A DNA stretch of 64,000 nt from Salvia splendens (taxonomy: Eukaryota; Streptophyta; Magnoliopsida; Lamiales; Lamiaceae), in assembly GCF_004379255.2 (NCBI RefSeq), contig NC_056050.1, positions 124,001-188,000 of the forward strand, read 5' to 3'. The notes below the pieces were generated by a model. That model did no database searches, was not told the DNA's origin, and saw only the letters and a program-made list of their open reading frames with translations. Numbering within the stretch: position 1 is the first letter of the stretch; every line of letters starts with the position of its first letter. Position numbers and translations under genes: made by a program. Positions 16,425 to 55,301 of this stretch are shown one piece after another.

Positions 16425-18412
16425 GGGTATCCACTGTGGATAGCCGTGGGTTAGGGCGGGCGTGGGGCGAACCATAGTGTAGGCGACGTCCGCCCTGGGG
16501 CGACCGGCATTCGGCGAAACCGGGGCGAGGACGCGCCGGGCGGCCTTTCGCCGCGCCTATAGGCGCGCCGACGGTCCTCGAATTTTTCTTTTTCTTTTTT
16601 TTTCAAAATTCATTCTATAAATACCACTCATCCACCTCCCATTTTTCACCATTTTCAAACACTACCCCTTCATTCACTATCTACACATTCACTCTCTAAA
16701 AATGCATAGTGGAGACGATGAATCACTCGACTCGCATGAATCTGGCTATGGCAGCAACCCTTCACAGAGATATGGCTGCTATCCTACTCAGCCGTCGGGA
16801 TATGGTGGCTATCCTTCTCAGCCGTGAGGCTATGGCAGGTCTCCGTCCCAGCCGTGGAGTTGGAGTCAAACCCCTCCCCCCGCCCTAGGCATCGAGTTCA
16901 AACCTTCATACATCTCAGTCGTGGAGGTCTTCTCCAACGCCCCCACCTTTTCAGCGGAATCTGAGTCGGTCGGCGTTTGGAGATTACAAACCCAACCTCG
17001 ACGCGCTTAACCAGCCACGTCCTGAGTCCCCTTTCCCATCCAGTCACTCTCCTTACACCGAAGCAGATCAAGACGCACTAGATACCATGATGGGGCTGCT
17101 CAGTTCTGGCGTCCCGGATACGCCGGTTGCACGGGTGGAAACGCAAGTTCTGACCCGAAGCAGCGCAGGGGGCGGTGGCGGAAGGAGCGGCGGACGCAGT
17201 GGCGGTAGATCGGGAAGCGCCGGTGGCGGCTCGGGCAGTGGCATCGGCAGCGGCGGTGGCGAGGGAGCCCATAGTGGGCACCGATCAAACCGAGGGGAGC
17301 TTCTAGAGGGGCGTCCTGATGGAGTACGACGAGTTCAAGCCGTGGGGCGCCCGAGAGCGCGACCCAGAACAGATCCGCGAAAAGTGGTCTCGGATTCTCC
17401 CGCCTACCAAGCGGTTCGCGTGCATATACCAGAACAACCTTATACACGCTGAGAGTGGCCGAAGCGAAGCAGACGTGAGGGCCTTGTCAATGGGCCAATA
17501 CTACACGGAGGGCTGGCCGAAGTTCACAATGTGGGAGGAGTATCAAGTCCTCGTGGATTGTCCGAAATTCAAGGCCATCTGCGCGCAAGAGGTCAGTGGA
17601 GCTCCTACGCAGAAGCGTACAAGACACAACCTTGTCGGGGACTACAGCAGCGGAAGCGGCTCGCACTCGTGCGAGCAGAGCGACGAGCAAGTCGAAGAGC
17701 CCGCCCCTACACACACTAGGCGAGGACAGCCCCCGGGACAAAAGGCCTCTATCCGCAGCGCCAGAGGGGCTAGAAGTGCCTCCCGCCTATCGTCGGCGCC
17801 GTCTGGATCGCGTTTCACGCATGCGCCCCAATCCCACCGCCGATGGTTCCTGGTCCTGCCGAGGTCTTGAGGGAAAACCTCGATGCGCAATTGATGCAAC
17901 AACTGCAGGACGTATGTAGCAAATACGGAGCGGAGACTGGCCCGTTCATCAAGAATATATACTTGAAGCTCATAACTCGACTTCAGCGGCGTCTAGGGTT
18001 AGCTGATGAGGCAACTGGGCCAACGGCAGCAGGCAGCAGCGAGGGAGGCGGAGAAGAAGACGAGGAAGCCGACTCCGACACCGAGTAGACGGTGGCGGAG
18101 TTTTTATTTGTATTTTATTTTTATTTGTATTGTATTTTAAATATTCGTTGTACAATTTTACCCTTTTCAATACAACGAGTATTCGGTCCCAATTATCTCG
18201 GTTTCTAATTATTTACACTGCGGTGATTTTAATTATATTTGATTGAAATAAAAAAAATGTTAAAATGAAAATTGATTATAAAATTTGGGGGCTATTGGAA
18301 GTGTCCACCATAGTGGCGGAAACAAATTTTTTGGGTTGTGGACAAAAAATTTGGGGCCATGAACAAATTTTGGGGCGGGGCTATTGGAGTGTCTACATTA
18401 TAGTGGACACTA
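16425..18412 (+). mobile_element. PIF/Harbinger-type element A
   Basis: Bounded by TTA at 16422-16424 and 18413-18415. The left end reads GGGTATCCACTGTGGATAG and the right end, inverted, TAGTGTCCACTATAATGTAG, which is imperfect but recognisable. Inside is a GC-rich leader, then a promoter-like CTATAAATACC near 16615, then a broken ORF1. No transposase is present, so it would depend on another element. Confidence 0.65.
16702..18088 (+). pseudogene. broken Harbinger-associated ORF1 (NAM-associated/Myb-like type)
   Basis: ATG at 16702 opens MHSGDDESLDSHESGYG and a run of (S/P)QPSGYGGYP repeats. An in-frame TGA stands at 16824-16826, and frame changes follow. Further on, the frame 17319-17600 reads WSRILPPTKRFACIYQNNL, HAESGRSEADVRALSM and FTMWEEYQVLVDCPKFKAIC, the conserved block of plant proteins often annotated glutathione S-transferase T3-like or NAM-associated and found with Harbinger elements. 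The end is an acidic tail, EEDEEADSDTE, with stop at 18086-18088. Confidence 0.65.
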
Positions 18413-18569
18413 TTAGAGCATCAACTATGGGACCGCCCCGCCTATAGCCCCGGCGGGGGTGGTCCCGGGGCGGTTTATAGTGGGGGACGTGTCCGCCCCC
18501 GGGGCGGACAACGGACAGGCTATGGGAAGGCAAGGATGCGTCGGGCCGTCCGTTCGCCGCGCCTATAGG

Positions 18570-19101
18570 TAGGGGTGGCAAATCGTGCGTGTCGGGTCGT
18601 TATCGTGTCGACACGATAACGACACGAACACGATAACAGCAAACACGAACACGACCCGTTAAGAAAACCTCAAACACGAACACGAACACGACACGAAATC
18701 CTCAGACACGAACACGACACGAACACGACACGAACCCATTAACGACACGAACCAATTCGGGTCAACACGACACGATAACAACACGTACACGAGATGACAC
18801 GATAACGACTCGATAACAACACGACCTGATAACGGTTAAACCTATTAAAAATGAAAATAATAAGAATTAATAATATTAAAATATTATTTGTTAACGGATA
18901 ACACGAACACGACACGAACACGTATTGTTAACGGATAACACGAACACGACACGAACACGACACGAACACGACACGAAATTTTCGTGTCCTTAACGGGTCG
19001 ACCCGATAAGGACACGAACCCAATAAGCTCTGACCCAAACCCATTATTTTCGTGCCGGTTCGTGTCGTGTTATCGTGTCGTGTCAAAAATTGCCAGCCCT
19101 A
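18570..19101. mobile_element. small hAT-type MITE rich in ACACGA repeats (left copy)
   Basis: Perfect 8-bp target duplication CCTATAGG at 18562-18569 and 19102-19109. The ends read TAGGGGTGGCAAAT and, inverted, TAGGGCTGGCAATT. The 532-bp interior is built largely from CACGAACACGACACG-type repeats and AACACGATAACG variants on one side, with matching GTGTCGTGTTATCGTGTCG near the other end, so it can fold back on itself. Confidence 0.85.
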
Positions 19102-19273
19102 CCTATAGGCGTGCCGGCCATAGTGACCGGCGATCGGCGCGCCGACGGTCAACTCGTAAATTTTTTTTTATTTTTTTTATTACTTACCTCTATAAATACC
19201 ACTCTCCACCCCCTATTTTCATCATTTTCACAAAATCCCTCCATTCAATCTCTACACTTTCACTCTCTACAAA

Positions 19274-19618
19274 ATGCACGGTGGAGACGACGAATCACCC
19301 GGCTCGCAAGAATCGGGCTATGACGGCGATCCTTCACAGCCGTCGGCCGGCTATCCTTCACAACCATCGGGGTATGGCGGATATCCTTCTCAGCCGACGG
19401 GATATGGCGGGTCTCCAGCTCAGCCGTGGATGTGGAGTCAATCTCCCCCGCTGTGGGCATCTAGCCCAAACCTACTTCCATCTCAGTCGTGGAGGTCTTC
19501 TCCAACGCCTGCACCTATTCAGCGAGGGAGGAGGAGGAGGAGGAGGAGGAGAAGAAGAAGAAGAAGAAGACGAGGAAGCCGACTTCGACACCGAGTAGAA
19601 AAGTGGCGGAGTTTTTAG
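19274..19618 (+). pseudogene. internally deleted Harbinger ORF1 in element B
   Basis: It opens MHGGDDESPGSQESGYDG and keeps the QPSGYGGYPSQPTGYGG repeats. Near 19523 it then jumps to the GA-rich 3' end of ORF1, so the central conserved block is gone. The join contains an expanded GAG then GAA triplet run (19525-19570), read as poly-Arg in the ATG frame. The ancestral acidic tail EEADFDTE is in a different frame (stop 19596-19598). It is not expected to be functional. Confidence 0.6.
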
Positions 19619-19908
19619 TTGTAGTTTATTTTAAATATTCGTTGTATAATTTTACCCTTTTGCAATTCAACGAATATTTGGGTTAAATTACCTCGTTTTC
19701 CAATTATTTACATTGCGATGATTTTAATTATACTTTATTGAAACAAAAAATATTTTAAAATGAAAATTGATTATAAAATTTGGGGCTATTGGAAGTGTCC
19801 ACTATAGTGGCGGAAACAAAATTTGGGGCTATGGACCAAAAAACTGGGGCTATGGACAAAAACTGGAGCGGGGCTATTGAGGTGTCCGTCTTATAGTGGA
19901 CACCCTTA

Positions 19909-20599
19909 GAGCATCTCCAATGGCGCCGTCGTCACCGGCACCCCGATTTTTCGCGGACGCCGGTGCTGACGCCGAACCATTGCGAGCGGCGTCGGCGAAA
20001 TCGGCGTCAAAATCGGCTTGCCCACGTCGATTCTTGGGCTGACGCCGATTCTCACGCCGATCCTCACGGCGCCATTGTAGGCCCCGGATCGGCGTCACAC
20101 CGGCGTCAGATTTTTATTTTTTTTTAATTTTTCGAAATACTATATATACGCGCTTTGGACATCATTTTCATTCACACCACTTGTTTTAACGAGTACTCTC
20201 TCTATCTTAATTTCTGTACAAGATCAACACCGAGAAATGGAGAACACCAACGAAGGTACTCCAGTGACGACCGAGTCTCAGACTCCCCCGACTCCCGGGG
20301 GAGGGTCTCAGACTCGTAAATTTTAAATTCCCGGGGAGGGTCTCAGACTCGTAAATTTTAAATTTTAATAGTATTATTCAATTTTCTTGTATTTGTCTCG
20401 TAAATTAAATTTTATATGTTGCTACGATTGTAAATTAAATTATATAATTGTTATTAGTGATGTGGATAGGCTATGGGAGGGCTATTGCATGTCCAGTTGC
20501 ATGTTCAGATGATGTGACAGGAGGATTTTAGTGCTGATGATGTGACAGTGGCAAGACTATGAGAGGGCTATTGCATGTCCAGAACCACTGGAGATGCTC
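19909..20599. mobile_element. PIF/Harbinger-type MITE C (left copy)
   Basis: TTA flanks it at 19906-19908 and 20600-20602. The ends read GAGCATCTCCAATGGC and, inverted, GAGCATCTCCAGTGG, a classic Harbinger MITE terminus. Inside is a GC-rich leader full of GGCGTCGGC-type repeats, a TATATA box near 20142, and a 30-codon remnant from ATG 20237 (MENTNEGTPVTTESQ) followed by duplicated GGGTCTCAGACTCGTAAATT units. Confidence 0.75.
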
Positions 20600-20803
20600 T
20601 TAGAGAATCATAAGAGATACCACTGGTAGATTCTGTAACGAACAAGCTTACAAAGCTCAAACTCTCAAAAACTGCGACAAAGTACAGTTATCATAAATCC
20701 AACCCCCACAACCATAAAGAAAATAAAAAATCTACATCCCAATATTCTGTTATCCTTAATCTTCATCACCACTCATTCCCATTTCCCACCCCCTTCCCAT
20801 AAA

Positions 20804-23800
20804 ATGCCCTCCATTGCTTTAACTAGAACAGCGCCGCCAAGACCGCCGTGCGTCAGCCTCTCCTCTTCCACCTCTCCATCCGCCTCCGTCGCAGCTCTTA
20901 GAAAAAGACCCAATTTTTGCTTCTCTCTATTGGGTTTCAAGCCGAAACGCTTCCATTTTCTGAAGCCATGTTCTTCACTAAGAGAAACCAAGAAATCACA
21001 GCAGCAAACACTCCCCAAGACTCCCAACACAGCTCCACAGAGCCTTAGGAGATACTTAAATTTCAACCCCAGGAGCGAGAATGATGAGAATAGGGACGGC
21101 GATGCGGCGGAGGAGGATGGCGGCAGCGGAGACGACGCTGGCGCGATTAAAGGCACAATCTTGGCGGGACTTCTGCTTGTGGGCGTCGTTGGTGGATTTG
21201 GGGTTGTTGGGTATGTGTACAGAGAGCAGATCAATGCTTTCTTGACCCAGTTTTCTGGCTTCATGGAAGGTGGGATTGTCGAGTCTTGTTTGTTGTTTTT
21301 CATAATTAGTAGTAATTGGTTTGTAGGCTCAAGATTGGATCTTTTGCTTGATATCTGGGGTGGGCAGAGAAATCTCAGCTCGAAGGGCTGCTGTAGAAAT
21401 AAATCGTGAACAAATTTGGGGAAAATGAGGCTTTCTTGATTTAATACATGCTTATGAAAAATGGGATTTGTCTGAAGATGGCATTGATGCATGCTAACTG
21501 GTTTCGTGTGGTGGAGGTTTGATAGATCATTGTTAACATTAGTTTGAGATGAGCATTGTGATTTAGTATTGGAATTTTTTGCTTTATGGGAGAGCAATCT
21601 CAGCCCTAATGGCTGTTGTAGAAAGAAACCGTTGACGAGTTTGGGGAAATTGAGGTTTTCTTGATTTGACATATGCTTGTGAATAGCGAGATGTGTTTGA
21701 AGATGGCAATGATGCATGTGATTGGAAGTTTGATCATTGTTGTGATTAGTTTGAGATGAGCATTGTGATTCAGTATTGGAATGGGGATTACTTCAGATGG
21801 CCCTAAGTTAGATTCTTCACATTTAAATATACGAGGTTCAGAAATCAGAATACAAGAATTTGAATTTCAGATTGCAATTTTCATGTTATGCTCATTATTT
21901 ACCAAATCAATATATTTCAATTACTTCTTGTAGTTGTTAAATTTATGTGGCCTACTGTATTTGAATAATGACTAAGGGGTATTATTCCAATCCCATTAGT
22001 TTCATCTAGTTTTGTAGAAAATTGTGTTTATCAATTGTAAGGTACTTGTGTAGAATTAGCTATTGTTTGCTATAACTGACACTCTTCCATTCAAACTCTA
22101 GTTTCGTATACGGGCTATATGATCAGTTTCGTCTTTGAAAATCTTGAATAAATCCACTCTATTGTTACCCTCATCTGTTTGTTTAAAAAACGATGTATTT
22201 GGTTCTAATGTGTTGTTGTTTACTATTACAGGTTACGGTGCAGCTGGATATGCCCTTTTCGTTGCAGTTTATGCCGGGTTAGAAGTAAGAAACCAGATAT
22301 CATGTTGAGCAAATTTGTTGCTTCTAACTACTTCAATGTTCGTTTCTTATGTTATCTTCATCTGCAAATACTGGCATCAAATCTTGATATATGTTATGGA
22401 TGACCTTTATTGTTTGTTCGACTCTTGGAACCATCAGTTCCTGCACATGAATCAGTATCTGAAATTCAGAATGAATTGATGCAAGTTATTATTTTCTGTG
22501 GTGTAGATACTTGCAATACCAGCCATTCCATTGACTATGTCCGCCGGTCTTCTTTTCGGCACGTTTACTGGGACCATTATCGTCTCTATTAGTGGCACAG
22601 TGAGTTTCAAATAGCTTGGATAGATAGAAAGGGTAATGCTGCAAACTGAGTATTAAGCCGTCTTACTTACATTTCAGGTGGCAGCCAGCGTTGCATTCCT
22701 AATTGCCAGATATTTTGCTCGTGAACGGATTCTAAAGCTAGTCAAAGGAAACAAGAAATTTCTTGCAATTGACAAAGCTATTGGGGAAAACGGTTTTAAG
22801 GTTGTTACTCTTCTCCGTTTGAGTCCGCTGCTTCCATTCTCTCTCGGAAATTACCTCTATGGACTTACAGCAGTCAAGTTCGTTCCATATGTCTTAGCAA
22901 GGTCAGCTCCTTCTTTTTCTTTTTCATGGACTTGTTTATGCTGTCGAAACTAATGCATTTTCTTGGAAGTGAATGGGAAATGGCTCATAACTACGTACAA
23001 TGAGTGTGATAATTGATAACGGATATTGTGTGTTCGACACATTATACATATTCTTGTCCTATTTGACATTAAGTGAGAACGTACATTAGACCGAAACTTA
23101 CATTAGCTAAGCTGCAATAATCTTCTAAGTAATTTAGTGATGTGAATATTGCTGATTAACTGAGAAATTATTGTAGATGAAATCAAACCTTAGCATGTTT
23201 GGGTCTATTATGAAGAATATAGCTTCTTCGACTTTTTCTTTAGCAGGCGGCATGTGATTTAAGTACAGTAACCTTTAACTATGTCTTGGCGCGAAGTCCT
23301 GTTCTTGCAGTTGGTTAGGTATGCTCCCTGGAACATGGGCGTACGTGAGTGCTGGCGCGTTTGGTCGAGCAATACTTGTGAGTCTCTAACCTTAAGGGCG
23401 TTTATCTCTTTAATTTTTGTATCTCAGATGTGAAGTTTGCTCGTGTTTTCCCAATCCAAGATTTTGGGATTCTGCTCCTATTTTTACTGACAAGGATAGA
23501 ATCATACTGCAACTATTTATCAACTATCTCCTAAAAAATGTTGGAGTTGAAGATGGATTAATTTCTTCGTGCTTGTTCACGAGCTAACGACCCGACTTTT
23601 TGCTTGTCCAGCAAGAGGAGTCTGGGGTAGGAGGGTTAAGTGGAGGGAATGGTCAGCTGTGGACACTTGGGATCGGGCTATTAGTGACAGCGTTCACAGC
23701 AACGTATGTAACACGACTGGCCAAGGTAACCCTACTAAATTGTGGTCTATGGCTCAAGATCTGGATCCAAACACTACCAAAATTACAAATACGCCATTAT

Positions 23801-23904
23801 ACGAGCATGATTGACTCGGATAAGAGTGCTCTCTGATGGATCCCGACACGTCTGATACATGTGTTTGTGTTGTCATGCAGGATGCCGTGAAAGATATCGA
23901 GTAA
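20804..23904 (+). CDS. VTT-domain (SNARE-associated Golgi/TVP38-TMEM64 type) membrane protein, plastid-targeted type
   Basis: Seven exons, 20804-21269, 22232-22284, 22507-22599, 22678-22901, 23311-23377, 23612-23725 and 23881-23904, join with correct phases into 346 residues. The first about 60 residues are rich in Ser, Pro and Arg like a chloroplast transit peptide. A membrane segment (GTILAGLLLVGVVGGFGVVG) comes near residue 120. The VTT core follows: YGAAGYALFVAVYAGLE, IPLTMSAGLLFGTFTGTIIV, AASVAFLIARYFARERI and RLSPLLPFSLGNYLYGL, then WLGMLPGTWAYVSAGAFGRA. A last membrane helix is in exon 6. Length and layout match the plant family that includes Arabidopsis At1g22850, from memory. Such proteins act as lipid scramblase-like membrane factors; the plant substrate is not known to me. 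This is the intact copy; the copy at 39162 has frameshifts. Confidence 0.85.
21362..21781. repeat. tandem duplication inside intron 1 of the VTT gene
   Basis: 21362-21575 and 21588-21781 are diverged copies, both with AATCTCAGC, GGCTG(C/T)TGTAGAAA, GTTTGGGGAAA, TTCTTGATTT, GAAGATGGCA and GAGATGAGCATTGTGATT in the same order. No open frame is conserved. Origin unknown. Confidence 0.7.
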
Positions 23905-24289
23905 AGAAGCATCAAAGTATTGATAGATGAACTGTAAATTGGGTACTAATTCATAAAAAAAAATGATGTACCACTCTCTCTATATATCTTCTCTTAAATA
24001 AGGGAGATAGATAAACTGTTCTGCCCTATGACTGTGTATCATCATTTTTCCACATTACCTTTTTATTAGCATGAGGAGTCTTGGATGAGATTCACCTCAA
24101 GATTCGAAAATCAAATTCAATCAGATTATATATTTATTTAGTGCCTATTTGGTAGCAATCATATGATACCTATATGCACCATAAGTTAACATGGTTGATC
24201 CTAGATAGTGTAACAAGCAATGGTGTTTGGTGGAGTAAGATAGAATTCAAATAATGTGTGAAATGACTTTTATATCCTTGTGATTTTTT

Positions 24290-24530
24290 TGGTGCTAAAG
24301 AGGGCCGTAGCCCTTTAAATTAAATTACGAATGTCTAACAAATCTTGAGAAAGAAACACCAATAACATTTGCTAAAAACAATTTAACTACCTCTCTAGGT
24401 GGGAATTGAAATGAAAGAAAATCTACATGTAAACTAAGACTATCTTTAGCGAACCAGTCAACTACCTAATTCTTTTTCCCTTGGTATGTATTTGATGTTG
24501 GCATGTTGCACTCCCAGTCTAATTGCATCA
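24290..24530 (-). pseudogene. possible LINE 3'-end remnant
   Basis: Read on the minus strand, an IPREKELG-like stretch in one frame and VVDWFAKD in another resemble the last RNase H motif of plant LINEs, followed by GGGCTACGGCCCTCTT. It is short and broken by frame changes, so the class is tentative. Confidence 0.3.
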
Positions 24531-26215
24531 TCCTATGTATCACATGGATTAAGTCTCTTGTGGATTGTGGTTAATGATTTAGCTCCTAAATTAACACTTA
24601 ATTAATTAAGCATATATATACTTAATTAAGTTGTAATTCATAATTTTATTGGCATATTTAATAATATAATTTAAATTGTGATTTTATTAGCATCTTTAAT
24701 ACTAATTTATTGAAAAAGTAGTAATTGTTACTTCGTTGGTTTGGATGTGAATTTTTAAAGGTTTTTTTTAACCAATTTAGCTAATTAGTAATGAATAATA
24801 AATACTTAAATAATGGAGTAATTACTAATTGAAAATCTACCCAAATATAAAACCTTTACTTTTACACCAACTTCTTATTTTTTTTGGGCTTCAAGTTTTC
24901 ATCAATCGTCTCCATTTAGCTTTGATGATAGGTACTCTCTCCCTCCCAATCCTCTCTCATCGGCTCCACGATCCGGACTGTTTTTTTTTTCTATGAACCA
25001 TTTTGTCAAAAAATTGTAAATATGACACATGATAAAATGTAGTGCCATGAAAGATTTATAGGTCGGTACCAAACCAAAATTATTTGAATGGATGGCTTCA
25101 TAATCTATAGTAATATCTGCCACTCAAGCATCTCCTTTGTGGATGCATTTGATTCTTTCTTAATTTGCTCATGATTATACCTAAAAAAGTATAAATAGTG
25201 GTCATCCTATTGGCACGGAGTTGAGAATATATACATGGCATTTTTTTGCCCAACCCAAACCTAACAACATAATAAAAGATTTATATTGAAAGTAATATTA
25301 ATTAAGTGGAAGAAGACGGACAAACTAATTGATTTATGCAAACAAACACATCACTCATTTTACAAACATCTGTACGATCTCACTTTACAACACAACTATA
25401 CATGACTCATTCTATATATGATTGTATGAGAATATAAAATACAAATACTAGATTGTAACAGAAGATTTCGAACGTGCAATGTAGTCCTCGCTATCAAATT
25501 GAAGTATATACCATGATTGATGGGAATAAAAGAGACATGAGGGAAGGACCATTAAAACCACACATATCCATGTGATAACATGTGAGCCATAGCCCAATAT
25601 TTAATTTTCTCACAGCATGTATATATATAACTTCAACACCAATGTGCTAGATTTGAAAGCTGGTTTGTGGTCCTCTCCTCTCTACCAAATTCATATTGGA
25701 TGAACTTTCTTTATATATAGACATTACATCAATTTTAGGATCTTTTTGTGATCACATCCTCTGTGTCCATGTCATGTGCTATTAGGATTGATTTTGATCT
25801 TGTTTTTATTCCATGCTGATAAGTTTTCGACAATCCTGATAAACTCAACTGGTTTTATTACGGGACAGCTCATGATGTTCATATCGATCTATTATGGAAG
25901 GCACACAATTCATAATGAATTTTCGGAGTGTTGTTAACTACATATGAGGAAGTGTAGATTAATCATAGCTAGTGTAATCAATACATTTTTTGTTGCTCGC
26001 CAAGTTATTAATAGTAAAATATAAAATCGCCTCTGTATTGAAGCTTATGGTATTAATATGAAAAGTAAAATGAAATACATATCATCTATTGATGTGATGC
26101 ATGTCAACATGAAAAAAAAAGAGTTCTTGAAACTTGAGGTATAAAAATCAATGCACAAATAATCACCACCAATGTATATCCACATAGAAAAGTTCACGAT
26201 GACAAGCCTTATTCA

Positions 26216-26269
26216 CTTTGATCAAAGAGTAACAATCACAAAATTCCTCTCCTAACCCCCCTTCACGTG
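26216..26269 (+). promoter_or_regulatory. conserved palindrome plus G-box in FPF1-like promoter
   Basis: CTTTGATCAAAG, a perfect 12-bp palindrome (26216-26227), is followed 36 bp later by CACGTG (26264-26269). The same pair, with the sequence between, recurs upstream of the second FPF1-like gene (30979-31032). Conservation between tandem duplicates suggests but does not prove regulation; CACGTG is a known bZIP/bHLH core. Confidence 0.45.
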
Positions 26270-26738
26270 TGGGGCATGTGATGTAAGTGGTCACAACAAT
26301 CTACACACATATATTTTCCAAACATTTATTGCATATGTGGTCTAGCTATAATAATAAAATTAATAATAATGCATGAGAATATTGTTCTCCCACTCCCAGA
26401 TTCTCCAATATATATGAACTTTTGAAGAGAAAGAAATTGAAAAAGCCCACAATCAAGCAATAGATTCTCCTATATTAAAAAGAATGTAAGAAACATCCAT
26501 ATTGTTCGTGTACCAAACATAAAATTGTAATGGGTCCCACGATATCTATCTAGGTTTTATTACACAAAACCCTATCAACATTACACATCTTTTTCATTCC
26601 AATATCCAAATTATCTCTCTTTCCCTCTCCCTCATCACACATATAAATACTCTTCCAATCCTCCACTTCAAAACATCACAATTTACTTCAACTTCTCCAA
26701 ACACCATAATTTTTATTTCCAACCATATAAGTTGAGAC

Positions 26739-38264: not shown

Positions 38265-38267
38265 TTA

Positions 38268-42262: not shown

Positions 42263-45096
42263 AGAAGCATCAAAGTATTGATAGATGAACTGTAAATTGG
42301 GTACTAATTCATAAAAAAAAATGATGTACCACTCTCTCTATATATCTTCTCTTAAATAAGGGAGATAGATAAACTGTTCTGCCCTATGACTGTGTATCAT
42401 CATTTTTCCACATTACCTTTTTATTAGCATGAGGAGTCTTGGATGAGATTCACCTCAAGATTCGAAAATCAAATTCAATCAGATTATATATTTATTTAGT
42501 GCCTATTTGGTAGCAATCATATGATACCTATATGCACCATAAGTTAACATGGTTGATCCTAGATAGTGTAACAAGCAATGGTGTTTGGTGGAGTAAGATA
42601 GAATTCAAATAATGTGTGAAATGACTTTTATATCCTTGTGATTTTTTTTGGTGCTAAAGAGGGCCGTAGCCCTTTAAATTAAATTACGAATGTCTAACAA
42701 ATCTTGAGAAAGAAACACCAATAACATTTGCTAAAAACAATTTAACTACCTCTCTAGGTGGGAATTGAAATGAAAGAAAATCTACATGTAAACTAAGACT
42801 ATCTTTAGCGAACCAGTCAACTACCTAATTCTTTTTCCCTTGGTATGTATTTGATGTTGGCATGTTGCACTCCCAGTCTAATTGCATCATCCTATGTATC
42901 ACATGGATTAAGTCTCTTGTGGATTGTGGTTAATGATTTAGCTCCTAAATTAACACTTAATTAATTAAGCATATATATACTTAATTAAGTTGTAATTCAT
43001 AATTTTATTGGCATATTTAATAATATAATTTAAATTGTGATTTTATTAGCATCTTTAATACTAATTTATTGAAAAAGTAGTAATTGTTACTTCGTTGGTT
43101 TGGATGTGAATTTTTAAAGGTTTTTTTTAACCAATTTAGCTAATTAGTAATGAATAATAAATACTTAAATAATGGAGTAATTACTAATTGAAAATCTACC
43201 CAAATATAAAACCTTTACTTTTACACCAACTTCTTATTTTTTTTGGGCTTCAAGTTTTCATCAATCGTCTCCATTTAGCTTTGATGATAGGTACTCTCTC
43301 CCTCCCAATCCTCTCTCATCGGCTCCACGATCCGGACTGTTTTTTTTTTCTATGAACCATTTTGTCAAAAAATTGTAAATATGACACATGATAAAATGTA
43401 GTGCCATGAAAGATTTATAGGTCGGTACCAAACCAAAATTATTTGAATGGATGGCTTCATAATCTATAGTAATATCTGCCACTCAAGCATCTCCTTTGTG
43501 GATGCATTTGATTCTTTCTTAATTTGCTCATGATTATACCTAAAAAGTATAAATAGTGGTCATCCTATTGGCACGGAGTTGAGAATATATACATGGCATT
43601 TTTTTGCCCAACCCAAACCTAACAACATAATAAAAGATTTATATTGAAAGTAATATTAATTAAGTGGAAGAAGACGGACAAACTAATTGATTTATGCAAA
43701 CAAACACATCACTCATTTTACAAACATCTGTACGATCTCACTTTACAACACAACTATACATGACTCATTCTATATATGATTGTATGAGAATATAAAATAC
43801 AAATACTAGATTGTAACAGAAGATTTCGAACGTGCAATGTAGTCCTCGCTATCAAATTGAAGTATATACCATGATTGATGGGAATAAAAGAGACATGAGG
43901 GAAGGACCATTAAAACCACACATATCCATGTGATAACATGTGAGCCATAGCCCAATATTTAATTTTCTCACAGCATGTATATATATAACTTCAACACCAA
44001 TGTGCTAGATTTGAAAGCTGGTTTGTGGTCCTCTCCTCTCTACCAAATTCATATTGGATGAACTTTCTTTATATATAGACATTACATCAATTTTAGGATC
44101 TTTTTGTGATCACATCCTCTGTGTCCATGTCATGTGCTATTAGGATTGATTTTGATCTTGTTTTTATTCCATGCTGATAAGTTTTCGACAATCCTGATAA
44201 ACTCAACAGGTTTTGTTACGGGACAACTCATGATGTTCATATCGATCTATTATGGAAGGCACACAATTCATAATGAATTTTCGGAGTGTTGTTAACTACA
44301 TATGAGGAAGTGTAGATTAATCATAGCTAGTGTAATCAATACATTTTTTGTTGCTCGCCAAGTTATTAATAGTAAAATATAAAATCGCCTCTGTATTGAA
44401 GCTTATGGTATTAATATGAAAAGTAAAATGAAATACATATCATCTATTGATGTGATGCATGTCAACATGAAAAAAAAAGAGTTCTTGAAACTTGAGGTAT
44501 AAAAATCAATGCACAAATAATCACCACCAATGTATATCCACATAGAAAAGTTCACGATGACAAGCCTTATTCACTTTGATCAAAGAGTAACAATCACAAA
44601 ATTCCTCTCCTAACCCCCCTTCACGTGTGGGGCATGTGATGTAAGTGGTCACAACAATCTACACACATATATTTTCCAAACATTTATTGCATATGTGGTC
44701 TAGCTATAATAATAAAATTAATAATAATGCATGAGAATATTGTTCTCCCACTCCCAGATTCTCCAATATATATGAACTTTTGAAGAGAAAGAAATTGAAA
44801 AAGCCCACAATCAAGCAATAGATTCTCCTATATTAAAAAGAATGTAAGAAACATCCATATTGTTCGTGTACCAAACATAAAATTGTAATGGGTCCCACGA
44901 TATCTATCTAGGTTTTATTACACAAAACCCTATCAACATTACACATCTTTTTCATTCCAATATCCAAATTATCTCTCTTTCCCTCTCCCTCATCACACAT
45001 ATAAATACTCTTCCAATCCTCCACTTCAAAACATCACAATTTACTTCAACTTCTCCAAACACCATAATTTTTATTTCCAACCATATAAGTTGAGAC
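42263..45096. other. intergenic region, copy of 23905-26738
   Basis: Holds the same LINE-like remnant (about 42650-42890) and FPF1 promoter, with CTTTGATCAAAG at 44574-44585 and CACGTG at 44622-44627. Nothing new is seen. Confidence 0.5.
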
Positions 45097-45432
45097 ATGG
45101 CTGGCATCTGGGTTTTCAAGAACAACGGGGTTATGCAGCTCGTAGAGAACCCTGGGGCCGATTGCGCTGAGAGTAAGGGCGTCTCCAAGCGGAAGGTGCT
45201 GGTGCACCTTCCAACTGGGCAGGTGGTATCCTCGTACAAATCCCTCGACCAAATTCTTCGAAATTTGGGGTGGGAGAGGTACTACGGCGGTGACCCCGAC
45301 CTCTATCAGTTCCACAAACACTCCTCCATCGACCTCATCTCTCTCCCCAAAGATTTCAACAAGTTCAGCTCCGTTTACATGTACGACATCGTTGTCAAGA
45401 ACCCTAATCTCTTTCATGTCAGGGACATGTAG
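45097..45432 (+). CDS. flowering promoting factor 1-like protein (first tandem gene, intact)
   Basis: A single exon of 111 residues, the usual length for FPF1 proteins. It has [20 protein letters not shown] at the start, [55 protein letters not shown] and the typical end [20 protein letters not shown]1 proteins are small plant-specific factors that promote flowering and gibberellin-linked growth; their biochemistry is poorly known. The promoter has ATATAAATA about 100 bp upstream, with a G-box and a palindrome about 470-520 bp upstream. The paralogue lies 4.7 kb downstream on the same strand. This is the unbroken version of 26739-27073. Confidence 0.93.
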
Positions 45433-48400
45433 CTTCCATTCTTCCTAGGTTTTCAGATTCTCTCAGAAAAATGTTTTTTTTTCCTTTTTTTTGTGGGTTT
45501 CGTGGTTTGGTGTGATGGGTAGAATTATGTAGCTTCGTAAAGAACAATTATTTGATCTTGAAGTGTGCTTTCTAGGATAGATAGAAGTTTGAAATGATCA
45601 TAATTTGTAATTGTTTCATCAAATCGACACCACTTGTTGGATTTCGACTTCCGGTTATTTTAGTTAGATGGAATCGTATTATGTTTCTTATGTGTAACGA
45701 ATTTTGAAAATCATATACTACTATTAAAATAAATAAATAAATAACATTATTTAAAAAAACACAATATAAATTTATTATTATATATGCGAGACGTCAAGGT
45801 CTAAGATTCAAATCTAATCGCTCACCTACTCTTGATTTGTAAAAAGTAACATCCGTCATTTATTCACTTGATATAACATAAATACATAGTGAAGGACTAT
45901 CCCCTCTAAATCCGTTATACGTACGAAAATTGTTGAGCAACGAATTTTCTTGTCGACCACACCAATATTACATGCATAAGCAAAATTTCTAATTAATATA
46001 ATTGATTTTGTGTATCAGTTCTTACTAAAACAAAATCATCATTATATTTTATGACATCACAAATGTATTCCTAATGTTAATTTAATTTTATATTTTATTG
46101 AAAGACAAAGTGTCATAAATATTGACCCCCACATTTTACTCTATAATTAATGTTTCAATGTACAATAATTGTTAGGTCCTAATAATATATTTAAGCATGC
46201 TCCATGCAAAAACAAAAAAAGATCCCACATACGATATTACAAGGTACAAACAGTGAAACAACCTATGACATACATTAAGATACGAAGCATAACCCTTTAC
46301 GATGCATACAATATTTTCTATCATTAAAACTTTTTTTTAATGAATAAATTATAGAATATCATCCGAACTTATTGTTTACATCATACTCTCGGGCATACCC
46401 GAAGGAAAACATCAACAACTAGCCAAAAGGAGACTAAGCATGCCAAAATAACATGGGCAAGCCCATGGAAGATACATAAGAAAAAACAAAATCGATGCAT
46501 GCAAAGAGAGCCCCGTCTTGAGACACCCAGTGTGGGCGGGCCTCGTTAAAACCCCTTGGGAATAATTGAAGAAAACCCCATGGGAAAAATTTCCCAATGG
46601 AAAAAAGAGTACCATGATGAGTGACTCAAGACGTGCTAAAATTCCACTACCACCTGAAAAACAATCACCATTATCATCTATGTGGGAGGTGGAAAACAAC
46701 TTGATCGTGGATAAACGTGCTCAGATCAAGGAAGCCGCCTACATATATTGCCATTTTGTACCCTAAAATATGCAAAAATACCATAATGTAATGATTCGGT
46801 AAATTTATTTCGATCTCTGAAAGATGAACTATTTTGTAAAAAACTATATTTTTAAAAAATTTAAAAATATGACACGTGGTAGAATTCTAACGTTCCATCT
46901 CATCATTTTGAGTGCCAAAAAATTTAGCTCATGTCATATTTTAATTATTTTTTTGAAACATTGGGGTTTTTTTTGCATCTTGCGATTTCAAAAGTCAAAA
47001 CATTTTTACAATTCACTCCAACTATCGAACAATAAAAAGAAGACCTAGATATATATTGATTGGATTGCAAACTATTGATAAAGAATAGAGTTTATTTATC
47101 TGAATTATCTTATAGTAATCTCATGTTTTATTTCATCCCTATCTCTATCTTTATGTAGGAGGGAAGTTTCCATTTGAATGCCTACAAAAAAAATGCTTCT
47201 TTAGGCTAAAGCTAATGAGAAAGGGAATTGATCACCTTTTTTTGCGGTACTTCTCTAATACCAATAACTTCATGCCTATTGCATAATCACTTATTTTTTA
47301 TTTCATTAATTAATAGCTCTAAGTAGTGGAAGTTTTCCTGTGAATCCCCTACCAAAAAAGAATGCCTCTTTCGGCTTTAGCTATAATTTTTTTAGTACTA
47401 CAATATATACTTGATGCCGATAACATAAAATACTAGAAATCTTTAACAGCATCAGATTCCTATACAAAAAAGCAATTAAGAAGTTTACCAAGAAAGATTT
47501 ATAGGTTGGCTTCATCACTCTTACCAATCCTAACGACCAATTGCCAAGATCCAAGTTCTAGGCACGCGGCGCACGTGACACACTGCACATGGCCATGTGG
47601 CTTGGGTCCGCGGCCTCGGTGGTGCGGGCGGGCGGGCGGCGGCGCGCGTTTAGGTTCTACTGTCCATTTTAATTAGTCCACTATAATATATTACATGTAC
47701 ATAATAATTTAGCCTATTGAATATTTCATCCGTCCCTGAAAATTTGTCACTTATTTCCATTTTTGTCTGTCCCTAAAAATTTATCATCTTTTACTTTTAC
47801 CATTTTTGGTAATGGACCTCACATTCCACTGACTCATTTACACTCACATTTTATTATAAAACTAATATATAAAAATAGGACGCATATGTCACTAACTTTT
47901 TCAACTCGCTTTCTATTACATTTTTAAAAACTCGTGCTAGATCAAATTGTGACAAATTGTTAGGAACTAAGGGAGTACATGTTTCAGGAGGCTCTCGCCA
48001 CCAATGTGAGATAATTAATCAATTGATTTTTCTCATAGCTCTATTTTTATGATTAACTTTAATCCATTATTTTTTACTCAACCGAAATCAATTTAGAGAA
48101 AAATGAATATACAACGATCATATAATCTGAACGTAGATCGATCCTATATCATTTAATTTCACAAATTAAATGTTCCTTCACATGTACGACCCGGTCAAAA
48201 CCCTTTGACTGGTCACGATTCCAACATGAGCGCATACCTACTGATTTACTTAAATGTCTCTTATTTCTTTCTTTTTCCTTAATTTGAAGCCGCGATTATT
48301 TTAGTTGAAGGGAGTGACTATAACTTATTATTATATAATTATGATTATCTAAAAATAATATATTTAATCTTTAAACATAATCTTTCGAACGAAATGCCCC

Positions 48401-49340
48401 TTAATTCACTTATTCTATGATTGATTGATGGGAATTAAAGAGACATGTTTGTAACAAAAGTTGGTTGTTGTTCAAACAAGGCATATATATGGATGAGGGA
48501 AGGACCATTAAAACCACACATCTCCATGTGATGACATGTGAGCCATAGGCCTGTATTTAATTTTCCCACAACATAGATAACTTAAGCACCAACGTGATAG
48601 ATTTGAAAGCTGGTTTGTGGTCCTCTCGTAAAACATATCGGATGAACATTAATTCTGTTATATTGATGGCATCAATTTAATTTTAAGATCATTTTTTAGT
48701 TCACATCTTGTATATCCATGTCATATGCTATCTAGTAGGCCAAATTTGTCTTTATTCTATGACTGGTAAGTTATCGACACTTCTGATAAACTCGACTGGT
48801 TTTTACTATGGGACAACGCATGATGTTCATATCTATTTATTATGAAAGGTATGGATCAAGTTAGGATTAAGAACTCTCTAATGAGTACAAGTGTGGGAGG
48901 CACACGATTTGTATTGTATTTGGGATAAACATATCACACATGTTTGTGTGTTGCTAACTACTCCCTCCCTTCTGTCTTAATAGATGCTTTTAATTTTCTG
49001 CACTCGTTTTGAAAAATTAATAATAATAAATAGTTAAATGCAGAAATAGTAAAGTAAGAGAGAATAATGTATAGAAGATTAACATGAAACATAGGGAGTA
49101 TATATGATCAGAAAGTGTAGATTAAACGTAGGTAGTGTCTTCAAACACGTTTTAGTGGATCAGTACATTCGTTGTTACTAGCCAAGTATGTTGAATATCA
49201 TAAAATAAAAAATAATAACATCCTATAGTACTGAAGCTCATGAGATTAATATAAAAAGTAAATTTTTAATATACATTATCTATGGTAGTGATGTATGTCC
49301 ACAAAATAAATTGAGTTCACACATGACTAGTCTTGTTTCA
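45433..49340. other. spacer between FPF1-like genes, copy of 27074-30978
   Basis: Contains the dispersed-repeat-like block (about 46380-46765), Stowaway-like elements at 47724-47975 and 48961-49098, and the GC-rich block near 47560-47650. No gene is supported. Confidence 0.5.
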
Positions 49341-49395
49341 CTTTGATCAAAGAGTAACAATCACAAAAATTCCTCCCTTAACCCCCCTTCACGTG
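49341..49395 (+). promoter_or_regulatory. palindrome plus G-box, second FPF1-like promoter (right copy)
   Basis: CTTTGATCAAAG at 49341-49352 and CACGTG at 49390-49395, as in the other three FPF1 upstream regions. Confidence 0.45.
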
Positions 49396-49818
49396 TGGGA
49401 CATGTGATGTAAGTGGTCACCCCAATATATATATATAATAATAATTAATACACATATTTTCCAAACATAATGCGTGCGAATATTGTACCCCCACTCCTTA
49501 GATTCTCCAATATGAACTTATAAAGAGAAAGAAAAATGAAAAAGCCTAAAATCGAACCATAGATTCTCCTAAAAAATAAGAATAGAAGAAACATCTATAC
49601 ATAAAAATGTAATGGATCCCACAATATCTATATATGTTTTATTATACAAAACCCTATCAACATTACACATCTTTTTCATTCCACCATCAAAATTAACCCA
49701 CCCCCTCTTCTTCATCGCACATATAAATACCCTTCCAACCCTTCACTTCAATTCATCACAACTTACTTCAACTTCTCCAAACACCTTAATTTTTATTTCC
49801 CAGCACCTAAGTTGAGAC

Positions 49819-50157
49819 ATGGCTGGCGTCTGGATTTTCAAGAACAACGGGGTTATGCAGCTCGTGGAGAATCCCGGGTCCGACTATGCTGAGGGTAAGC
49901 GTGGTGCCTCCAAGCAGAAGGTGTTGGTGCACCTACCGTCTGGGCAAGTGGTGTCCTCGTACAAATTTCTCGACCAAATTCTTCGGAATTTGGGGTGGGA
50001 GAGGTACTATGGTGGCGACCCCGACCTCTACCAGTTCCACAAACACTCCTCCATCGACCTCATTTCTCTCCCCAAAGACTTCAACAAGTTCAGCTCCGTT
50101 TATATGTACGACATCGTTGTCAAGAACCCTAATCTCTTTCATGTCAAAGACATGTAG
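49819..50157 (+). CDS. flowering promoting factor 1-like protein (second tandem gene, intact)
   Basis: A single exon of 112 residues: [60 protein letters not shown] and [13 protein letters not shown]. It differs from the first gene mainly in the variable stretch after residue 20 and by one extra residue there. The tandem arrangement and shared upstream sequence show a local duplication that included the promoter. A Stowaway element lies about 700 bp upstream in this gene only. It corresponds to the frameshifted 31457-31794. Confidence 0.93.
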   Translation: MAGVWIFKNNGVMQLVENPGSDYAEGKRGASKQKVLVHLPSGQVVSSYKFLDQILRNLGWERYYGGDPDLYQFHKHSSIDLISLPKDFNKFSSVYMYDIVVKNPNLFHVKDM

Positions 50158-51268
50158 TAAGTTTGCTGTGATGGCTTGATTTATACAGCTTTGTAAAGTG
50201 ATTTCGAAATTTCGTTTTTTTTCCTTAATTTCTACTATGGAGTTTGTAATGTTCATAATTTTTCTTTATTTTATCAAATCGACAGTTCTTGTTGGACTTT
50301 GGCTTCACATTAGTTAGATGAAATCGTGTAATTTTTCTTTTGTGGTGTATGTATAAACTGTGAAATTTGAAAAATATGTTAATATAAATCAATATCATTA
50401 TTGTTTTAAAAAATTAATATTCCATACATTTATTTTACTGTATAGTATGAAATTTATATAAAAAATTTACATTTGCTCACTTGCTAAATTATTAAAATAA
50501 AAATAAAATAAGTAAAGTTGTAGTACGTGACTTTTTTAATTAATATAATTAATTTTGTTTATTCTTACCAAAACAAGCTCATCGTATGTTTCATGATATC
50601 ACAAATCTATTCTTCATGTTAATTACTCCCTTAATCTCACTCTAAGTGGAACATTTCTGTTCCAGCACGGAATTTTATAGAGTGTTGTTTTGTGAATTAA
50701 ATGGAAAGAATAAAGTAAGAGAGAGTGAAAAATTAGATAGAATGATATTTCTATTTATAAAAATGTGTCATTTAGAGTGAGACAACCCAAAAAGAAAAAT
50801 AGTTCACCTGAAGTGGAACAGAGTGAGTATATTTTAAAATTGTATTGAAAAAAATAGTGGCATAGATTTATTGACCCCCGCATTTTACTCCATCATTAAT
50901 GTTTCCACGTACAATAATTGGTAGGTCATATTTTGATTTTGCATTTTCCATGCAGCAACAAAAAAGGGGCGATATATTATTACAACGTACAAACCTATGA
51001 CAAATTAGGGTACGAGAATCATAATCTTTTTCACATGCAATACTTTCTATTATAGAATAGACATGTCTCTTACAATCACATAATATCGTGATTGATTGAC
51101 GTTACGTGACATAACATATTTTATAACTTGACCATAAATATGTGACTGAGAAATTGTATGACGCGTATAGAGTGAGAGACGAATAATGGCATAAATCAAG
51201 GTTCCAAACTAGTAATGAGATTATTACATGAACTCATTTTATATGTAAAAACGTAATAGTTCTTTAAT
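50158..51268. other. spacer with Stowaway MITE at 50626-50827
   Basis: Copy of 31795-32907, AT-rich. Only the MITE is recognised. Confidence 0.5.
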
Positions 51269-52142
51269 TGTTCATATTTTACAAACCCATCCCACATCGG
51301 ATGAATGGGGAAAGTTGGAAGGTGTATATAATTCCTGTCCAACCCCAATTAGTTTGAGGCCTTCTGGGAGTGACCCAAAAACAAATCCGTGCGGGCTTGA
51401 CCCAAAGCGGACAATATCAAACTAAATGTTGCAGTCGACGATCCTAACAAGTGGTATCAAAGCCCAGGTGGCTATGGGTTGTGCCTGGATGAGCCCCGGT
51501 TAGGGTCGGGCCCTGAAGGACTCAAAGTTAGAGTCGGGCCCAGGATGACCCAGGGGCCAGGGCTGGAACAACCCATGTTCGTGTCAACTGCGTTCCCGAT
51601 GTGGTCTCGGTTTGAAGGGAGGTTTTTTGGGTTACAAACCCATCCCACATCGGATGAATGAGGAAAGTTGGAAGGTGTATATAATTCCTGTCCAACCCAA
51701 ATTAGTTTGAGGCCTTTTGGGAGTGATCCAAAAATAAATCCGTGCGGGCTTGACCCAAAGCGGACAATATCAAACTAAATGTTGCAGTCGACGATCCTAA
51801 CAAGTGGTATCAAAGCCCAGGTGGCTATGGGTTGTGCCTGGATGAGCCCCGGTTAGGGTCGGGCCCTGAAGGACTCAAAGTTAGAGTCGGGCCCAGGCCA
51901 GGGCTGGAACAACCCATGTTCGTGTCGACTGCGTTCCCGATGTGGTCTCGGTTTGAGGGGAGGTTTGTTGGGTTACAAACCCATCCCACATCGGATGAAT
52001 GAGGAAAGTTGGAAGGTGTATATAATTCCTGTCCAACCCCAATTAGTTTGAGGCCTTTTGGGAGTGACCCAAAAACAAATCCGTGCGGGCTTGACCCAAA
52101 GCGGACAATATCAAACTAATGTTGCAGTCAACGATCCTAACA
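51269..52142 (+). mobile_element. TRIM-type mini LTR retrotransposon with three LTRs (right copy)
   Basis: LTRs at 51269-51449, about 51628-51802 and 51966-52142, two internal domains between, and TGGTATCAAAGCC after the first two LTRs. Same structure as 32908-33784. Confidence 0.8.
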
Positions 52143-52471
52143 TATCAAACCACAATTAAATTAACCACGCTTAAAGAATGGAATTATTTGTTCCAGGATT
52201 CAACATAGGTGTTGCATACATTCACAGTATATCTTCGTGATTGAATTACTGAAAATAATTCTTCATTTAGTTAACCTTGTATATACATTTATTACTAACA
52301 CAAGGCAGATGCATTCGATACTCTAGTGAGTCGTTTGGTTAGCATGACAAATCATGTTAAATGTTATTATCATGAGTTAACCTGCTGTTTGGTTGCTTTG
52401 TTTGATAACATGAGGCCCGATGTCGGCCCGTCAAAGCCCGAACTGTTCATCCAAATAACATGTGTTTCGTA

Positions 52472-52857
52472 TCAGCATTTGAGGCACCGATTATAATCAT
52501 GCCTCGACTCCCGTGCCCGATACAGCATCAACATTTCCATTTTGCCCTCTATACGTGATTTGAATTTTGGAAACACCTCCTCCAATAATTCATCCCCAAA
52601 CCTTGTGTGAAACCACTGCAGACACACCCTACAATTGAAGCCAGAGATTGTTACAACACTTGAGGACTCCATACCCCCACGCACAAAAGGTAGGCCAAAA
52701 TTGTTGTATTATTCCCCTCTATAACAATTTGGATCGGTGTTTGTATATGGTCACAAATGCCGTCTGAATTTTGCGTCCACATCCAGGGGGTCGGCGTTAG
52801 GGATCCGATTCGTCCACCGGAATCGGTCGACATAAACATCAGCAAGTTTTCGCCCAA
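52472..52857 (-). CDS. hypothetical small ORF at the left of the Harbinger element
   Basis: Two minus-strand frames (52857-52685 and 52628-52472) can be joined by GT-AG splicing into about 110 residues, with SLTPTPWMWTQNSDG in the first and CLQWFHTRFGDELLEEVF in the second. The implied intron is only 56 nt, short for plants. I recognise no domain. It could equally be non-coding leader sequence. Confidence 0.25.
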
Positions 52858-53347
52858 ATTTCAGACGGTTAGTTATTGATGCTCCAGTTCATAAACAATC
52901 GACTCTTTCCATTTGTGTTTTTATTTTTTACGTGCTTGATTTTCCAGATCTCCTTTTGTGCTTTATTTTTTATGTGCTTGATTTTCCAGATCTCCTCTTG
53001 TTCTTTATTTTTAGGTGTTGAGCTTTATTATTGCTAAGAATTTTTAATCTCTATTAGTAGTATATTGGTTTATAGAAATGGAAGACCAGTTTCTCTGCAG
53101 AGTAAATAGTTCTCGTTAGTATGCACACAGAGTTTGTATTGACAAGTTGTATCTGTTCATAACTTGAGTTTGCAGCCAAATTTGAGTACGTGTATGTGCA
53201 TCACATGACTGTGTATTCGTTAGTAAAGTGAGTCTTTACTGAATCTAGAGTTCTCTAAAGGCAATTTTATGTTTTTGTGCCCAATATTCATGAATTTCAT
53301 TCTGATTTTGTAACATTTCCTTGGTAGTTGTAATTGAATTGCTCGTG

Positions 53348-54919
53348 ATGGCCCGTATTGTTCGTGTACCCCCTTCCGTTAACCTGATGGTGGAAGATAT
53401 ACTTTTTTTGTTGCGTATTCAACAAATCATCATTCTGTACTTATACTTGAAAAGAACAAGGCGTTTTACACGTCGTGTAAGAAATCACCAAGTTAGGTAT
53501 TCACTAATTGAGCGAATCCCTCCACAAGTGAGGCATATGAACAGGCTCACTGCAGTTAGTGATGTCGACTGTTTTTCGAACCTCCGTATGGATAGGAATG
53601 CATTTGGACGATTGTGTATTCTTTTAAGAGACCGTGGTGGACTACGGAATGGTCGATTTGTGTTACTAGAGGAGCAAGTAGCAATTTTCCTAGGCATTTT
53701 AGCCCATCATAAGAAAAATAGACCTTCTGGATTTGAATTTCGTCGTTCGGGTGAAACCATTTCTCACTATGTGCATCTTGTACTTAAAGCGGTACTCAAG
53801 TTGCATACAATTTTATTGCCTCGGCCTGATCCGGTGACAAACAATTGTGTTGATCCACGATGGCAACACTTCAAGGTAATCTAACTTTAATTTGCACGAT
53901 TTGCATTCAATTCTTGCAGTTTGTTGGTAGTAATATATTGTTTTCATAATGCTGGTACCGAATTGCAAATAGGGTTGTATTGGCGCTTTGGACGGCACTT
54001 ACATAAATGTGCTCGTAAGGACCTTAGACAAGCCACGATATCGCACGCGAAAGGGCCAAATCGCGACCAATACTCTTGCTGCGTGTGACCGCAATATGAA
54101 GTTCTTATACTTTTTACCCGGGTGGGAGGGATCGGCGGGTGACTCTCGAGTGCTTAGGGATGCTGTCACTAGAGAAGGTGGATTGAGAGTAAACAAAGGT
54201 GTAAGAACAGGATACTGTGATTATTTAATCCTTGTAGTATTCATTTTTATCTTTTTCCCATTATTTACACTAGCTAAATACCCCATCGTATGTTGGCACT
54301 TTTATAGGAACTTATTATCTATGTGATAATGGATACGCAAACAGTGAAGGATTCCTTACTCCGTATAAAAACGTGCGCTATCATTTGAAGGAATGGGGAG
54401 TCGGGACCCAGCGTCCGCAAAATGCACGAGAATTGTTTAATCTAAGGCATACTAGAGCTCGTAACATAATTGAGAGGGCCTTTGCAGTGCTAAAGATGAG
54501 ATGGGGTATCTTACGGAGTGCTACTTTCTATCCGATTAAGATCCAGATCCGGTTAATCATGGCATGCTTCCTGCTACACAATTTCGTACGGGGTGAGATG
54601 CACAATGATCCAATTGAGCAACACGTTGACGGAGATACACAACCTCTGGTCGATGAGGAGATTCATGGTGACCTAGAATTCGTAGATCAAGTAGAGCCAA
54701 CTTCAGAATGGAACCAAATGCGGGATGACTTGGCTAACTCCATGTGGAGTAATGTGTGTTTTTATGTGACTTTTCCAAATTTAATTTGGTTAATTTTGCC
54801 TAGAATTGTCAGATTACATCTGTTATATAAGCAGTATCTTATTGTGAGGTTATTATAAATAATTACATATTTTCTCAATGTTTTTTGTTTTGTAGCGAGC
54901 CAATGTCGACGGTAACTGA
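53348..54919 (+). CDS. Harbinger transposase (DDE_Tnp_4 / HARBI1-like nuclease)
   Basis: Exons 53348-53875, 53973-54198, 54308-54753 and 54896-54919 join in phase into 407 residues. The N-terminus is basic (KRTRRFTRRVRNHQVRY) followed by a helical DNA-binding-like region. The catalytic triad is seen as D in GALDGTYINV (near residue 183), D in GWEGSAGDSRVL (near 233) and E in NIIERAFAVLKMRWGIL (near 307), with YYLCDNGYANSEGFLTPY between. These match the plant PIF/Harbinger nuclease family. The start was taken at the ATG after a possible acceptor (TTGGTAG); an upstream non-coding exon is possible. Without the last splice, the frame would run on to 54858 with an unlikely tail. Harbinger nucleases normally work with a Myb-like partner, and one is encoded at 57303-58541. 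Confidence 0.88.
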
Positions 54920-55301
54920 AGAATTGGACATGATACCCGAGTGTCTTTGCGGCGGTGGCAGGATGAAGTTGTTATGTGCTGGGAAAGCGGCCACACACGC
55001 CGGTCGTTACTTTTATAAATGCCCAGCCGATGATAAACATTCCGGGTCTTTCTTGTGGTGCGATGACTACCATTCTCGGATAGGGGATGGCAAGCAACCG
55101 ACATATGTAAAGAGTCAACTTTATCGGCCTAATAAACATATGAAGTACAGGGAGGAAGCGAAAAATAAAAACATCATCAAGCAGGGTAGTGATTGTGGGG
55201 TCTGTGGCCGCTGTCGCGTTGAAGCTCGGGTGAACCTCTTGTTGGCTGGCTTGGGTTTAGTTTTATTATTGGTTGGATTTGTGCTAGGGAAAATGGTGTA
55301 G
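54903..55301 (+). CDS. GRF-type zinc-finger protein with C-terminal membrane segment
   Basis: An unspliced frame of 132 residues from ATG 54903. Residues about 13-53 carry PECLCGGGRMKLLC, GRYFYKCP and SFLWCDDYH, the pattern of GRF zinc fingers, which bind single-stranded nucleic acid in other proteins. The usual Cys before F-x-W is replaced. A Cys-rich DCGVCGRCR motif precedes a hydrophobic C-terminal helix (LLLAGLGLVLLLVGFVLGKM), a layout seen in many small plant GRF proteins. Its start overlaps the last transposase exon in another frame, so it needs its own transcript or alternative splicing. In the left repeat copy the gene is lost at the gap after a few bases. Confidence 0.65.
   Translation: MSTVTEELDMIPECLCGGGRMKLLCAGKAATHAGRYFYKCPADDKHSGSFLWCDDYHSRIGDGKQPTYVKSQLYRPNKHMKYREEAKNKNIIKQGSDCGVCGRCRVEARVNLLLAGLGLVLLLVGFVLGKMV

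Follow-up and report, generated by a model that had tools for sequence, protein, structure and literature searches.

One locus very probably assembled twice on the two sides of a gap in the Salvia splendens assembly

Introduction

The window analyzed here is a 64-kb stretch of the assembly of scarlet sage, Salvia splendens (C19:124001-188000), in which two nearly identical 18.3-kb blocks flank a short gap. Each block carries a gene with a VTT domain (TVP38/TMEM64-like), two FPF1-like genes and part of a PIF/Harbinger transposon. Judged from the sequence, the 18.3-kb block is very probably one locus that was assembled twice, with two noisy contig ends set side by side. The locus would then most likely contain one VTT gene, one real FPF1 pair and one Harbinger transposon, each present once, and the extra set of genes, like the gene damage in the block, is probably not real. 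This case is supported by a gradient of errors relative to the gap, in combination with a lack of demonstrably real differences, a single-copy homoeolog and contig ends bound by repeats. The gradient by itself is insufficient, because noisy contig ends are also expected of a real tandem duplication whose junction is lost in a gap.

An initial annotation of this DNA inferred an unmerged contig overlap, and that inference is supported by the polarity of the differences (69 of 75), the single-copy homoeolog and the repeat-bound breakpoints. Its further claim, that a recent tandem duplication predicts no such gradient, is too strong, since a duplication with its junction in the gap also gives noisy ends.

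Passages of the paper on a chromosome-level assembly of S. splendens mention PacBio reads with a mean length of 7.4 kb, scaffolding by Hi-C, gap closing in two rounds and Pilon polishing (PMC8408255). For an earlier assembly, passages of another paper mention Canu, scaffolding with SSPACE-LongRead and a heterozygosity of 0.06% (PMC6030905). Judged from the species, the sizes and the locus tag, both papers appear to describe the assembly analyzed here.

Results

The only run of N in the window is the gap itself, 94 N at 36565-36658. BLASTN returned a single match of 18,309 columns, with 99.5% identity, between 18295-36564, the final 18,270 bp ahead of the gap (the left copy), and 36659-54922, the initial 18,264 bp beyond it (the right copy, a repeat of the left-copy locus). 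The near-identity of these two stretches, as initially annotated, thus holds with exact coordinates and from end to end around the gap. A suffix of the left contig equals a prefix of the right contig and the gap bounds both, which fits a homotype false duplication. The same geometry could arise from a real, very young tandem duplication on C19 with its junction in the gap and ordinary contig-end noise laid over two identical copies, because a gap at a tandem junction always puts the alignment ends at the gap edges. Noisy contig ends are possible under either reading, and a duplication younger than detectable divergence would be indistinguishable from an overlap by sequence alone.

In an affine alignment, the copies differ at 89 sites, comprising 83 insertions or deletions (indels) and six substitutions; extra sequence is found in the left copy at 44 places and in the right copy at 39. 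Single-base indels account for 82 of the 83, and 56 of those 82 fall in homopolymer runs of three or more. The affine alignment was used instead of one made with MAFFT, which misplaced gaps and yielded 27 "substitutions". The window contains another repeat pair suitable for comparison, 3272-4780 and 14552-16051, direct repeats with 95% identity about 11 kb apart that are probably the long terminal repeats of one retrotransposon. This pair shows the reverse mix, with 43 substitutions versus seven indels. Since the comparison repeats are substitution-rich, the gap-flanking pair is unlike diverging DNA.

Nine of nine Harbinger copies elsewhere in the genome mark three of the six substitutions as errors of the left copy, and the remaining three are clustered at 25850-25868 (44208-44226 in the right copy). 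This cluster, three substitutions inside 19 bp, is the sole one in mid-block, and the bases of the homoeolog are all in the right copy. Substitutions bear on whether the copies are two haplotypes of one locus placed in tandem, i.e. a heterotype false duplication. The reported heterozygosity of 0.06% predicts about 11 substitutions in 18.3 kb, and six were found, three of them clustered. On the contrary, indels make up 83 of the 89 differences, their polarity tracks gap distance, and half of the substitutions are the left-copy errors just described; the differences thus do not behave as haplotype variants, and this explanation is highly improbable.

For each difference, the erroneous copy was identified by comparison with L031-L036, which cover the homoeologous C20 locus, with L039-L047, nine Harbinger copies of near-identical sequence, and with L003-L020, 18 occurrences of a transposon segment near 20000-20316. 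In the first third of the block the right copy is closest to the gap, and in the last third the left copy is. A polarity script settled 66 of the 89 differences, with ratios of right wrong to left wrong of 21:0, 2:7 and 0:36 in the first, middle and last thirds, respectively (Fisher p = 5e-16, first versus last third). Nine decisions based on reading frame, paralogs and element copies raised the settled number to 75 of 89, and the ratios to 25:0, 2:7 and 0:41. The right copy is wrong at 21054 by the VTT frame relative to the S. miltiorrhiza protein P0122, and the left copy at 31619 by the FPF1 reading frame, the homoeolog being tied at both. Paralogs within the window place the error in the left copy at 33068, 33243 and 33693, and in the right copy at 19726 and 19757. 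At 33968, where the element starts, the left copy is wrong according to nine of nine other element copies, and at 19085 the right copy is wrong according to all six fetched copies (of at least nine) of a nested repeat.

Altogether, the gap-nearer copy is wrong in 69 of the 75 decided differences. The six exceptions are the substitutions at 25850, 25857 and 25868, and indels at relative positions 8641, 9206 and 9561, all three of which lie within 500 bp of the block midpoint. The polarity count leaves aside 14 of the 89 differences, at relative positions 1304, 1542, 2043, 2069, 3002, 5989, 6889, 9834, 10312, 10709, 11264, 11659, 12915 and 14072. Weak hints at some of these favor the left copy at 3002 (two overlapping C1 loci), and the right copy at 11264 and 14072 (a single locus each) and, by eye, at 1542.

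Counted by the script in 3-kb bins of distance from the gap, errors assigned to the left copy number 28, 7, 4, 4, 0, 0 and 0, and those assigned to the right copy 8, 13, 0, 2, 0, 0 and 0. In the right copy, 21 of the 23 script-assigned errors are within 6 kb of the gap, and neither copy has any past 10.7 kb. The farthest assigned error lies about 10.7 kb from the gap in the left copy, or 9.6 kb if the three unsafe substitutions are set aside, and about 9.6 kb in the right copy. The initial annotation had described a gradient and suggested counting indels against substitutions by distance from the gap. Such a count gives a predominance of indels (83:6) and assigned errors that fall away from the gap. 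What stands of the gradient is the polarization of errors to the gap-near copy; it is not monotone up to the gap, as the first 790 bp are identical.

Comparison with a homoeolog or paralog identifies the derived version, and polarity alone does not tell error from mutation. It is safer for indels, and at the substitutions of 25850-25868 merely suggests the ancestral base. Because the derived versions swap copy with gap distance and also break the VTT, FPF1 and transposase frames, error is indicated. On the 75 of 89 differences decided, and with the three clustered substitutions regarded as unsafe, the copies differ by sequencing error and not by haplotype variants, as in a homotype false duplication; no difference between them was shown to be real on this basis. 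The latter point also argues against a young tandem duplication, as does the dependence of inter-copy divergence on gap distance, although an undiverged young duplication would likewise lack divergence independent of the gap.

The mirrored damage seen initially in the genes is confirmed for each of them. The left VTT gene (20804-23725, + strand) has its matched exons in frame and matches P0121 (SASPL_147949 [Salvia splendens]), exon 1 being 100% identical over the matched part. Its counterpart in the right copy (39162-42083, + strand), a probable false duplicate, has frameshifts in two exons. A long open reading frame (ORF) on the minus strand, 20773-21717, is distinct from the VTT gene, itself on the + strand from 20804. 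The FPF1-like genes show the opposite state. Gene 1 is frameshifted at 26935 in the left copy (26739-27089, + strand) and intact, with 111 aa, in the right copy (45097-45432, + strand); gene 2 is frameshifted at 31619 in the left copy (31457-31816, + strand) and intact, with 112 aa, in the right copy (49819-50157, + strand). The Harbinger transposase follows the same pattern, its exons being broken in the left copy but in frame in the right. False gene counts and false pseudogenes, as proposed initially, are probable, since polarity puts the frame breaks in the gap-near copy and C20 matches each gene once.

The homoeologous region on C20 contains no N in the 60 kb compared. At the level of matches longer than 150 bp, it is broadly colinear with the window over 1-3272, 16228-16431, most of 20602-33972 and 59223-64000. 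Colinearity is imperfect, with small pieces near 28.5-29.6 kb out of order and additional DNA of its own on C20; about 16424-20601 and 52327-59226 are absent from C20. The C20 locus is single-copy, having a single VTT region and matching each FPF1 gene once. This single-copy, broadly colinear arrangement indicates that the locus holds a single VTT gene and a single FPF1 pair. The two FPF1-like genes are about 4.7 kb apart, each being matched at the homoeologous locus. Because each has its C20 match, the pair itself is real and seems to reflect a smaller, older tandem duplication.

The single-copy homoeolog speaks against a young tandem duplication of the whole block, and more distantly related VTT-like regions on C1 and C2 (65-84%) also occur once apiece. 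Moreover, within 1-2 kb around both block ends only matches of up to 30 bp were found. These are unsuited to unequal exchange, and homology-driven exchange at the block ends was rejected on that ground. Both ends also lie within dispersed repeats. A real duplication is therefore improbable. If true, it would be an 18-kb VTT-FPF1-FPF1 duplication confined to one of the subgenomes of this tetraploid species, and the doubled flowering-promoting-factor genes could be a cultivar trait.

The right end of the overlap falls inside a 6.9-kb PIF/Harbinger element (52327-59226, + strand). PIF/Harbinger elements are characterized by a DDE_Tnp_4-type transposase, a Myb/SANT-like second protein, a 3-bp target-site duplication and terminal inverted repeats. 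The transposase exons of the present element (53348-53875, 53973-54198 and 54308-54753; overall 53348-54753, + strand) have splice sites that were set by eye and are consistent with P0241. This protein matches 92% of the spliced query with full identity and scores 75.1 against DDE_Tnp_4 (cutoff 24.8). The ORF at 55749-56114 is a borderline Myb/SANT-like candidate, with 23.5 bits against Myb_DNA-bind_3 (cutoff 23.6). The element also encodes a GRF zinc ribbon. A target-site duplication flanks both sides in three insertions, with TAG here, TTA at L057 and TAA at L058, and TAA, TTA or TAG stands ahead of the element in all ten insertions. The empty homoeologous site on C20 holds a single TAG, and the element here is flanked by TAG twice. 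Near the element ends is a 17-bp inverted match (94%), which represents the terminal inverted repeats.

At least nine other copies of the element (L039-L047) are 99.85-100% identical across the 4.1 kb compared, over which the right-hand element has 0-3 mismatches and 0-5 gaps relative to each of the nine; two copies traced over the full 6.9 kb are 99.94% and 99.99% identical. Judged from these identities, the element looks to have been amplified very recently and may still be active. A literature search for Salvia splendens and Harbinger found no paper. In the left copy, the element is truncated by the gap (33968-36564, + strand), and its 28 scored differences all favor the right copy; nine of nine genomic copies back the right-copy version at 27 differences, and eight of nine do so at the remaining one.

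These figures also bear on an old tandem duplication in which pseudogenes are forming in either copy, a reading that the genes broken in one or other copy would favor. In that case, however, damage would have to switch copy at opposite ends of the block, as the polarity does, and consist nearly wholly of single-base indels. The right-hand element would also have remained near-identical to nine others while the 2.6-kb left piece came to differ from it at 28 scored places. The probability of such a history is practically negligible.

As the initial annotation had it, both contigs break off in mid-element at the gap, and both ends are inside multi-copy repeats. The left contig ends 2.6 kb into the 6.9-kb Harbinger element, whose length is close to the mean read length. 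The right contig starts (18295 = 36659) within a repeat-rich stretch without homoeologous counterpart, 16424-20601, with approximate borders set by eye. Its start point is spanned by at least nine genomic places at 91-95%; repeat-copy counts given here are lower bounds, with 40 candidates scored per search. The same stretch contains a nested repeat (18564-19110, about 547 bp) with at least nine copies elsewhere in the genome at 97-99% identity. Dispersed repeats are usual places for contig breaks, and the repeats may have caused the breaks in this case.

Discussion

The sequence of events that would account for one locus assembled twice is as follows. The left contig would traverse the VTT gene and the two FPF1 genes and halt inside the multi-copy Harbinger element, and the right contig would enter the locus from the opposite side, beginning in another multi-copy repeat. 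The 18.3-kb dovetail would have been left unmerged, and scaffolding would have arranged the contigs head to tail with a gap of 94 N. Contig ends built from few reads would give a consensus whose single-base indels thin out within about 10 kb. Polishing may then have failed, because short reads with the true base align better to the copy that already has it, leaving the wrong copy unpolished.

Several observations weigh against this interpretation. The 18.3-kb overlap exceeds the mean read, and passages of the chromosome paper report removal of contigs more than 99% identical (PMC8408255). Without polarity, the events per third of the block number 31, 15 and 43 (P = 0.0004 under a uniform model), a U-shape that is weak by itself because 10% of position rotations leave the middle third equally sparse, and event density was therefore dropped as main evidence. 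Two first-third votes are weak, i.e. those at 20128 (eight for, two against, eight ties) and 20228 (three for, one against, 14 ties), and 19836, outside the 75 decided, is by eye a left-copy error near the left end. At 25850, 25857 and 25868, the right copy agrees with the homoeolog, contrary to the overall direction; homoeologous reads were possibly misapplied there in polishing. Finally, the 790 bp of the right copy adjacent to the gap (36659-37448) have zero differences from the left copy (18295-19085). A difference-free tip of the right contig runs counter to expectation, as most errors should lie there. Multi-copy DNA was rejected as the reason, since the Harbinger piece is also multi-copy yet error-rich.

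Through the false copy, a reference chromosome gains an extra VTT gene, two extra FPF1 genes and a partial transposon, and intact genes take on the appearance of pseudogenes. In S. splendens, passages of the chromosome paper report 3053 duplications between homoeologous chromosomes, from which expression differences were interpreted (PMC8408255). Unmerged overlaps could inflate such counts, by which we do not imply that the present block is among the 3053. The approach is reusable: where reads are lacking, homoeologs and near-identical transposon copies can expose errors that track gap distance.

A limited literature search, by titles apart from passages of one paper (PMC8081667), found no plant case of a false tandem at contig ends. 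Among known systems, a true tandem segmental duplication resembles the present case in its multi-gene block arranged head to tail, whereas here no real difference between copies was shown, the homoeolog is single-copy and the junction is hidden in a gap. In a heterotype (haplotypic) false duplication, as described in passages of PMC9516828, one locus is also kept as two copies, usually with a gap between; it requires haplotype variants, whereas here nearly all differences are indels in the gap-nearer copy. Ko et al. regard gaps between copies and haploid-level depth as signs of false duplication (PMC9516828, in the passages available). The artefact fits a known kind, the homotype false duplication at contig boundaries, for which passages of PMC8081667 describe one locus in two dovetailing contig ends, a gapped tandem and unequal consensus quality. 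Those passages deal with vertebrate overlap-layout-consensus assemblies, in which the size is often one corrected read; here the genome is that of a plant, assembled with Canu, and the duplicated block measures 18.3 kb, whereas raw reads average 7.4 kb.

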